From the IMG/VR virus record IMGVR_UViG_3300028131_000823, positions 1 to 64,000 of that record: DNA of 64,000 nucleotides; one strand, given 5' to 3'. The notes beneath the pieces were generated by a model. It was given only the letters and a program-made list of their open reading frames with translations, was not told where the DNA came from and made no database searches. Source of the DNA: a virus. A program made the position numbers and the translations under genes. Shown here piece by piece: positions 8,032 to 48,984 of the stretch (the first letter of the stretch is position 1; the number at the start of each line of letters is the position of its first letter).

Positions 8032-8041
8032 TGATATATAA
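8032..8041 (+). promoter_or_regulatory. Candidate late promoter TGATATATAA
   Basis: The box lies 33 nt before the ATG at 8066, downstream of a terminator. It is one of a set of near-identical boxes placed 25-46 nt before late genes in this window. Confidence 0.6.
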
Positions 8042-47063: not shown

Positions 47064-47720
47064 ATGAATTTTATTACAATTGATTTTTCTTTAAACTCTC
47101 CTGGTATTTGTTTATTTAATGACAATACTAATCAATATCATTTTATTTCTTATTTAAAAAGATCAGGTACAAAAAAGGCTATTAAGACACAGGAAGACTT
47201 AGCTTTAATGGAGGGTGTTACTCTTGTTTTTCAGCCGGATTGGGAAACTCATGTTGATTATTCTAGTATTGAACTTGCTAAGATTAAACGTTATGATATT
47301 ATGTCAAATAATATTATCGAACTAATTACAAAACATATAGATAAAGAAGACTCATTTAAGATAGCATTTGAAGGGGTATCTTATGGTAGTTCTGCTGGGA
47401 CTAATAATATTATTGATATGGCAGCGGCTGCATCTATTCTTAAGATTAAACTTCTCAAATACTTTAAGCCTGAAGATATTTTAACAATAGCTCCTTCAAC
47501 AATTAAAAAACATGCAGGTAAAGGTAATATGAATAAGCTAGCTTTATGGGAAGTTTTTATAAATAATTCTACTGGTGAAAAATTTCTCGAGGAGACAAAA
47601 TTCTGGAAGTTCGCTAAAACCGTTGAATTCGGTAAATCTATCCCAAAGCCCTTTGATGACCTTGTAGACGCTTTCTACTTAAACTCCTTAATGAGAACCT
47701 TAGAACCTAATCTTCCCTGA
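47064..47720 (+). CDS. RuvC-like Holliday junction resolvase
   Basis: 218 residues from the ATG just after the upstream stop; the frame extends 14 codons upstream but into the previous gene. RNase H-like fold signs: FITIDFSLNSPGICLF (first acidic D7), KIAFEGVSYGS (second acidic), AAAASILKIKLLKYF, ILTIAPSTIKKHAGKGNMNK, and KPFDDLVDAFYLNSL with the final acidic pair. This is the RuvC/resolvase layout. It would resolve branched DNA before packaging, replacing T4 gp49 (endonuclease VII). Confidence 0.75.
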   Translation: MNFITIDFSLNSPGICLFNDNTNQYHFISYLKRSGTKKAIKTQEDLALMEGVTLVFQPDWETHVDYSSIELAKIKRYDIMSNNIIELITKHIDKEDSFKIAFEGVSYGSSAGTNNIIDMAAAASILKIKLLKYFKPEDILTIAPSTIKKHAGKGNMNKLALWEVFINNSTGEKFLEETKFWKFAKTVEFGKSIPKPFDDLVDAFYLNSLMRTLEPNLP

Positions 47721-47722
47721 GG

Positions 47723-47747
47723 CTTAAATACTTAAGTTATATAGCCC
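47723..47747 (+). terminator. Possible weak terminator hairpin
   Basis: GGCT and AGCC flank a palindromic ACTTAAGT core, giving an interrupted hairpin after the resolvase gene, followed by a pyrimidine-rich stretch (CGTTCTCTCTTTTGTTT). The T-run is broken, so termination may be partial. Confidence 0.3.
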
Positions 47748-47810
47748 GTTCTCTCTTTTGTTTCAGAAAATATAAAAAAAAATTAAAAAAAGTTTTTAGG
47801 CTAATTTAGT

Positions 47811-47842
47811 TGAAACTATTCTAAATAGAGATATATAATATT
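47811..47842 (+). promoter_or_regulatory. Gene 32 upstream promoter, copy A
   Basis: TGAAACTATT at 47811-47820 lies about 10 nt before GATATATAATATT. The same 32-nt arrangement recurs at 47964-47995 with 25 identical positions. Most other GATATATAA boxes lack TGAAACTATT, so this pair may be a middle-type promoter with a -30 activator box, as T4 middle promoters have. Confidence 0.5.
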
Positions 47843-47846
47843 GTAT

Positions 47847-47921
47847 ATGGAAAACGATAAACTAAGTTCATATTTGAACACTAATTATCGGACCCTGTCT
47901 GAAGCAAACGAGGTGCAATAG
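47847..47921 (+). CDS. Possible 24-codon leader peptide upstream of gene 32
   Basis: An ATG 5 nt after promoter copy A opens a 24-residue frame, MENDKLSSYLNTNYRTLSEA then NEVQ, ending at TAG. It overlaps the folded RNA segment almost exactly. Translation of this frame would melt the hairpins, so it could couple leader folding to ribosome activity; equally it may be a chance frame. Confidence 0.25.
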   Translation: MENDKLSSYLNTNYRTLSEANEVQ

Positions 47922-47957
47922 CACAAACTAAGTCGGTTAGACGCGCAAACAAGGTTC
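47855..47957 (+). ncRNA. Folded leader RNA of gene 32 (putative translational operator)
   Basis: CGATAA (47855-47860) pairs with TTATCG (47885-47890). Inside, GTTCA (47866-47870) pairs with TGAAC (47875-47879) around TATT, with a symmetric ACTAA/ACTAA internal loop. Downstream are hairpins GTGC-AATA-GCAC (47913-47924) and CTAA-GTCGG-TTAG (47928-47940), and GACC (47891-47894) can close them with GGTT (47953-47956). It lies between the two tandem promoters, so only transcripts from copy A contain it. The T4 gene 32 leader also has a folded element that nucleates gp32 binding. Confidence 0.5.
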
Positions 47958-47963
47958 ATATTA

Positions 47964-47995
47964 TGAAACTATTTTAAAGTTGACTATATAATATT
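47964..47995 (+). promoter_or_regulatory. Gene 32 proximal promoter, copy B
   Basis: TGAAACTATT at 47964-47973 and CTATATAATATT at 47984-47995 match copy A at 25 of 32 positions with the same spacing. A transcript from here would lack the folded leader but keep the ATTAAAG boxes. Confidence 0.5.
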
Positions 47996-48000
47996 ATAAG

Positions 48001-48055
48001 TTTAAAGTATAAACGGTAAATTAAAGTAAAATTAAAGATTAAAAGTAAATTAAAG
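48001..48055 (+). promoter_or_regulatory. ATTAAAG repeats before the gene 32 start codon
   Basis: TTTAAAG (48001), ATTAAAG (48020), ATTAAAG (48031), ATTAAAAG (48038) and ATTAAAG (48049) occupy an unstructured A/U-rich tract up to the ATG at 48058. The T4 gene 32 operator likewise has repeated UUAAA units in single-stranded RNA where gp32 binds cooperatively to repress its own translation (from memory). The same autogenous control is inferred here. Confidence 0.5.
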
Positions 48056-48057
48056 TT

Positions 48058-48984
48058 ATGGAAGATTTTAACATTTTTAGCATTGGTGTCGAAGACATCA
48101 ACACACATGAACAAGAGGTAAATACAACTGGAAACATGATGTATAAGCCTTCTGCCGATGATGGCAAAGACGGAACGTATAAAGCATTAATTAGATTCGT
48201 TCCTAATATTGAAAACCCAAGAAATTCATTAATTAAAAAATACGTAAACTGGCTAACAGGTCCAAACGGCGATTCTAAGTTGATTGATTCTCCAACTACA
48301 ATTGGTGAACACTGTCCAGTTTCTGATGCATTTTTTAGATTAAGAAAATCAGAAAGCGCAGTTGATAGAAAGGCGTCTGATAAATTAAAAAGAAGAGAAT
48401 CTTATGTAGCTCTTGTAAAAATTATCAAAGACCCTCAACAACCTGAATTAGAAGGTACTTATAAAATATTTAAATTCGGTTACAAAATCAAAGAAAAAAT
48501 CGATGCGGAATTAAAGCCTAATTTTGGTGAGCCAACTCAAGTATTTGATTTATTTGAAGGTAAAAACTTTGAATTAGTAATTACAAGACAAAACGATTAT
48601 AATAACTACGACACTTCTAAATTCTCATCTTCAACATCTGCGGTCACTGTTAAAGGTAAAGCAGCAGAAAGAACTAAAGAAGATATGGATGCTATTAAAA
48701 CTGAATTAGAAGGAGCCCCTTCAATGAAGCAGTTTGAATACAGACCATGGGATGAAGACACAAGAAATTTCGTAAATAGCGTTCTTAAAATGTATTTAAA
48801 CCCTGGTGAAGCAATAGATGCTGTAACTAATCAGTTTGAAACAAGCACTCCGGTACCTAAAGCTGAAAAGGCTACTTCAACTCCTAAAGCTGAAAAGGCT
48901 ACTTCAACTCCTAAAGCTGAAAAGGAAGCAACACCAGCAGGTGGCGATGATTTAGAATCTTTTCTGAATGATCTCGAACTCTAA
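48058..48984 (+). CDS. 32: Single-stranded DNA-binding protein, gp32
   Basis: 308 residues (T4 gp32: 301). Layout matches gp32: a basic N-terminal region, an OB-fold core (YKALIRFVPNIENPRNSLIK; SYVALVKIIKDPQQPELEGT; YKIFKFGYKIKEKID), then a linker and acidic tail DDLESFLNDLEL for partner binding. Only one Cys (in GEHCPVSDAFF) remains where T4 has a zinc knuckle, so zinc is probably absent. The linker holds two 9-residue PKAEKATST repeats and a partial third. Preceded by a complex leader; overlaps primase by 17 bases. Confidence 0.88.
   Translation: MEDFNIFSIGVEDINTHEQEVNTTGNMMYKPSADDGKDGTYKALIRFVPNIENPRNSLIKKYVNWLTGPNGDSKLIDSPTTIGEHCPVSDAFFRLRKSESAVDRKASDKLKRRESYVALVKIIKDPQQPELEGTYKIFKFGYKIKEKIDAELKPNFGEPTQVFDLFEGKNFELVITRQNDYNNYDTSKFSSSTSAVTVKGKAAERTKEDMDAIKTELEGAPSMKQFEYRPWDEDTRNFVNSVLKMYLNPGEAIDAVTNQFETSTPVPKAEKATSTPKAEKATSTPKAEKEATPAGGDDLESFLNDLEL
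48856..48927 (+). repeat. 27-bp tandem repeat in the gp32 linker
   Basis: Two exact 27-bp units (48856-48882, 48883-48909) and a partial third encode PKAEKATST repeats between the DNA-binding core and the acidic tail. Perfect identity at DNA level suggests recent duplication or variable copy number. Confidence 0.85.

Follow-up and report, generated by a model that had tools for sequence, protein, structure and literature searches.

Upstream of gene 32 in the window (64 kb of a T4-like phage, taken from a 205-kb virus record), five short repeated boxes run into the start region of a gene encoding a single-stranded DNA-binding protein (SSB), and we consider it somewhat better than an even bet that this tract, at 48001-48055, is a gene 32 translational operator bound by gp32 with boxes that have drifted, a folded RNA further upstream being separate and lineage-specific. 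Both parts, which are separable, lie in a 337-nt gap (47721-48057) that the initial annotation had delimited correctly, between the end of a RuvC-like resolvase gene at 47720 and the gene 32 ATG at 48058. Self-control of gene 32 by the box tract is plausible; gp32 as the ligand of the boxes is proposed from what is known of T4 and RB69 (PMC535899, PMC3014915).

48001..48055, + strand: box tract, proposed operator overlapping the start region, with five [AT]TTAAA(A)G boxes at 48001, 48020, 48031, 48038 and 48049

As had been described, the last of the five boxes ends 2 nt before the ATG; a sixth lies at 47973, within a promoter-like site (P2). Boxes are clearly enriched relative to dinucleotide shuffles, with six [AT]TTAAA in 91 nt against 1.5 expected (p 0.0002) and six TTAAA(A)G against 0.5 (0/5000 shuffles), and the tract is the densest TTAAA(A)G cluster of the window, all other gaps of which hold two in 1,588 nt combined. 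Three matches to a triple-box pattern occur in the 205-kb record, including the gene 32 tract, and the other two are looser, one inside an open reading frame (ORF) and one where there is no long ORF.

The relatives (80 from IMG/VR, further sets and phage records; a search of genome contigs for relatives found none) show that the boxes are specific to gene 32. In clade A, to which the window phage belongs (33 rows in the gp32 tree, support 100/100), TTAAAG is found 2.10 times per 80-nt leader at gene 32 (39 de-duplicated leaders) versus 0.12 times before 251 other genes, and an unbiased count of hexamers places it first by difference. The sister clade B, with a gp32 of about 50% identity, carries boxes of another sequence in the same place, 3' of a 5' hairpin: GGCA reaches 2.68 per gene 32 leader (34 leaders) versus 0.11 before 57 other genes, and AGGCAA 1.56 versus 0.02. 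Most clade B leaders in which a promoter was found are arranged as TGAAAC...ATATATAA, a 5' stem-loop, three to six GGCA and the ATG (usually ATGGCA), i.e., promoter, hairpin, boxes and start codon in the order known from T4 (PMC535899, PMC3014915), and covariation in the stem-loop is moderate (pairing in 88% of cells, both-sided changes in 11 cells, a score above all 500 shuffles). More distant still, the Lak phages of Prevotella (gp32 30-34% identical) have TTTAAAGTAATTAAAG...AATTAAAGTATTTAAAGTTATG before gene 32, with four boxes there in Lak-A1 and none in the intergenic part of any other of 47 gene leaders over 46.6 kb; Lak-B5 retains the gene 32 boxes. Box type tracks the gp32 tree, in which the long-branch rows (T4, Lak, MA9V-1 and CPt10) are unsurely placed. 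A hairpin also lies 5' of the boxes in Lak-A1 and Lak-B5 (L195, L205), and by eye its arms show compensatory differences between the two phages, GGCAC/GUGUC versus GGCGUUA/UAACGUC.

The position of the last box at the ribosome-binding site, the restriction to gene 32 and the same design in other letters in the sister clade are the reasons for reading the tract as an autogenous operator, in the T4 style but with a drifted box sequence. Under such control, gp32 exceeding the available single-stranded DNA would bind cooperatively along the boxes and cover the start region, as in T4. P2 would give rise to a short gene 32 mRNA carrying the boxes only, and the box sequence would have drifted from UUAAAG (window clade, Lak phages) to AGGCAA (sister clade), presumably alongside changes in the protein; the transcription start sites and the repression are inferred. 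Several observations weigh against this reading. The tract was called unstructured in the initial annotation, but calculation does not support this: the start region ranks only 48th of 61 genes for predicted unpairedness (ViennaRNA), since weak pairing is possible between the A/U boxes and the first part of the coding sequence, and weak A-U pairing is all that is predicted at the tract. Translation initiation may account for part of the signal, given that the last box is located where the ribosome binds, and because leaders within a clade are related, the p-values for the boxes overstate independence. Several clade A members have zero or one strict UUAAAG box, but looser UUAAAC/UUUAAAC repeats, and the gene 32 leaders of Chryseobacterium phage MA9V-1 and of the two cyanophages examined are devoid of such boxes.

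The operator of T4 and RB69 (PMC535899, PMC3014915) likewise lies before a gene 32 homologue, with several UUAAA-type repeats extending into the ribosome-binding region and a folded element 5' of them; the T4 leader reads ...TTAATTAAATTAAATTAAAAAGGAAATAAAAATG, with TTAATTAAATTAAATTAAAAAGG as its box part, and no sequence homology was found between it and the window leader. The parallel with T4 that had been drawn for the whole gap holds for one half of it, the conserved, gene 32-specific boxes reaching into the ribosome-binding site, and fails for the folded segment as a pseudoknot counterpart. T4 and RB69 have a contiguous 5' pseudoknot of about 28 nt, whereas in the window phage none directly abuts the tract and the covarying RNA, which is longer and nested, is set apart from it on the 5' side, beyond a promoter-like site; the UUAAAG boxes of the RNA-bearing clade, moreover, are mostly 7-11 nt apart, and those of the sister clade read AGGCAA. 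The short leader expected from P2 resembles the RB49 gene 32 leader (PMC535899) in having UUAA/UUAAA units and no pseudoknot; no structured RNA is reported there, unlike in the window phage. The STAXI motif (PMC2864571) resembles the window element as a structured element often near SSB genes, but is a tandemly repeated pseudoknot, while the window element is single and nested.

It has been called unclear how gp32, a sequence-independent single-stranded DNA binder, selects its own mRNA, and work on autocontrol across a range of T4-type phages has been explicitly requested (PMC535899, PMC3014915). The two clades, whose gene-specific boxes differ in sequence but share one place, offer a natural swap experiment, each gp32 with each leader. 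It is conceivable, if somewhat short of an even chance, that tandem-box autocontrol of gene 32 is ancient and extends far beyond the T-even coliphages, its box alphabet shifting from UUAAAG to AGGCAA with the RNA specificity of the SSB, and that the window's subclade gained, 5' of gene 32 and flanked by duplicated promoters, a new class of structured RNA.

Two other explanations of the boxes have to be weighed. They might be recognised by a different factor, for instance a phage repressor of translation like RegA or the ribosomal protein S1 of the host, which would raise or lower gene 32 translation without gp32. A/U-rich tracts are commonly S1 sites, and the ribosome-binding position coincides with the last box; RegA is present in T4 (PMC3014915). 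The gene specificity of the boxes would, however, be odd for a general factor, and the switch from UUAAAG to AGGCAA does not fit an enhancer preferring A/U, which leaves this explanation unlikely. Less likely again, and improbable in our view, is that the boxes act in DNA, as iterons of a replication origin or as sites for a DNA-binding protein beside gene 32. Short A/T-rich tandem direct repeats adjoining a promoter-like site would suit such a role, and some T4 origins are located at promoters, but there is no GC-skew turn near 48 kb, all boxes share one orientation, the spacing between their end and the start codon is nearly fixed, and the clade B boxes change sequence while keeping their place.

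The upstream part of the gap contains the following features:

47811..47838, + strand: P1 promoter-like site, TGAAAC (47811-47816) and GATATATAA (47830-47838), a late-promoter-like motif kept in homologues
47841..47964, + strand: conserved structured RNA, with H0 AUAUG/CAUAU, H1 CGAUAA/UUAUCG and H2 GACCCUGU/ACAAGGUU enclosing H3 and H4
47855..47890, + strand: H1 hairpin, CGATAA (47855-47860) with TTATCG (47885-47890), inner GTTCA (47866-47870) with TGAAC (47875-47879)
47891..47956, + strand: H2 closing stem, GACCCTGT (47891-47898) pairing with ACAAGGTT (47949-47956) around H3 and H4
47913-47924, + strand: H3 hairpin, GTGC/GCAC
47932-47942, + strand: H4 hairpin, GTC/GAC
47964..47993, + strand: P2 promoter-like site, TGAAAC (47964-47969) and TATATAATA (47985-47993), a 77% copy of P1 (direct repeat D1)

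The folded element is a real covarying RNA of about 120 nt with a nested structure. The CGATAA/TTATCG stem, its inner GTTCA/TGAAC hairpin and the two further hairpins are present as first noted, the H2 stem having been overlooked. The covariation check proposed at that stage came out positive: in an alignment of ten distinct homologues made from sequence alone (A2), 93% of cells are paired, 26 cells and nine pairs show changes on both sides (among them three pairs of H2, two of H3 and two of H4), the score is reached by 0/500 shuffles, and slid pairings are only 32-39% paired. H1 changes from CGAUAA/UUAUCG to CAGUAA/UUACUG in L014, L019 and L020, with a similar CAGUAG/AUGCUG in L021; as the H1 and H3 changes are distributed alike across the members, one or two events, and not many, may lie behind them. 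The unpaired GGAAAAC and CAAACU-like stretches are highly conserved, and H0, being invariant in the alignment, is a putative pairing. The fold is modestly better than that of shuffles (z -2.0 for the whole gap, -1.7 for the element alone). RNAalifold on A2 gives a different, smaller consensus with an alternative 7-bp outer stem and without H2 and H3; the H1-H4 structure is preferred because it is supported by the covariation and by single-sequence folds, which for most members agree independently with H2, H3 and H4.

With a covariance model (R1), the element is found once per genome, always before gene 32 and only in one 12-row gp32 subclade. There are no significant second copies in the 205-kb record or in 18 other records, and scans of all viral contigs with its 5' and 3' motifs return the same contigs only, plus a truncated one (L098). 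The window has no Rfam match at the curated gathering score, and a lax Rfam search of the gap yields nothing beyond a match to the opposite strand, put down to chance. With its clear covariation, the folded RNA is a candidate for a new phage RNA family. It is not the counterpart of the T4 pseudoknot that had been suggested: it is nested and about 120 nt long, it is followed by a promoter-like site before the boxes, and sister phages that have retained the boxes lack it. The conserved fold contains no pseudoknot, although no dedicated pseudoknot search was made.

Both flanks of the element carry promoter-like motifs. Of the 11 + strand copies of GATATATAA in the window (among these, at 8033, 13747, 20792, 22047, 35572, 46682, 47830, 52219, 59102 and 62523), 10 fall in intergenic gaps, which make up about 3% of the window (binomial 1e-14); it is therefore very probably the late promoter motif of the phage. 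Nearly every clade A leader retains the TATATAA/TATAAG part of P2 before gene 32, whether or not the RNA is present. Most sister phages (e.g., L023, L024 and L029) have in the slot between P1 and P2 a conserved ORF of 56-75 aa instead of the RNA, such as MLVTTDYLRLLSILQKMVIANQLTEKQASELLHKSGLIKLKENKWKEPSGAILTIN, these ORF families having no PHROG match; the slot is nearly empty in L041, and in L025, L032 and L054 it has neither the RNA nor an intact ORF, holding either a decayed ORF or another RNA. With such differing contents, the slot acts like an interchangeable cassette flanked by the duplicated promoters.

The folded RNA, lineage-specific as it is, would be transcribed from P1 as a late-type promoter. 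As P2 separates it from the boxes, it probably forms either a transcript of its own, as a small RNA, or an optional 5' element of a long leader; in the favoured reading it would become the 5' part of a long gene 32 mRNA, since no obvious terminator follows. That it is a stand-alone late phage small RNA, directed at some target in host or phage and playing no part in gene 32 control, is a serious possibility though not quite an even one; this applies to the folded RNA alone and does not conflict with an operator role of the boxes. The late-type promoter at near-constant spacing from the first paired base, the exchange with an unrelated small ORF in the slot, and the conservation of the unpaired stretches speak for it, while the missing terminator and the fact that the element never occurs away from gene 32 speak against it. 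Rather doubtful is the alternative that folded RNA and boxes form one operator on a P1 transcript, a three-way-junction RNA replacing the T4 pseudoknot as the gp32 nucleation site. The constant place directly upstream of gene 32 with no obvious terminator after it would agree with this, as would the small 5' hairpin of sister P2 leaders being weak or missing, and the P2 TGAAAC partly lost, in the subclade that has the element. Against a single operator stand the promoter-like site between the two parts, the distance of about 40 nt from the end of the element to the first leader box, and the sister phages that have boxes and, in place of the element, a small ORF.

A protein-coding role for the element was considered and rejected: the frame that begins with the ATG at its 5' end is 24 codons long in the window and 43 codons long in L001, but in other members it stops after about 12-32 codons and contains indels, and so is not a conserved protein. 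At 47905-47915 the window reads AACGAGG where most close relatives have AACATAGG, and the frame from this ATG is shortened from 43 to 24 codons. A resemblance of AGUCGGUUAGAC to a tRNA D-arm was dropped, as homologues have AGUCAGAUAGACU.

Gene 32 itself (48058..48984, + strand) encodes an SSB of 308 aa (PF08804, E 1.4e-15; phrog_224, E 7.6e-38) and is followed on its 3' side by a primase-like gene and a UvsW-like helicase gene. Further upstream, about 130-300 nt before P1, a tRNA-like gene is found in L014 and L018-L022 (e.g., L022:2495-2638, L020:2528-2661), with an insertion of about 60-70 nt around the anticodon arm; at five of these six loci the match to the Rfam tRNA model extends over 130-145 nt, and ARAGORN makes no call. 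On its 3' side lies another conserved folded segment, with stems CUUAGA/UCUAAG and AGGCGU/ACGCCU.
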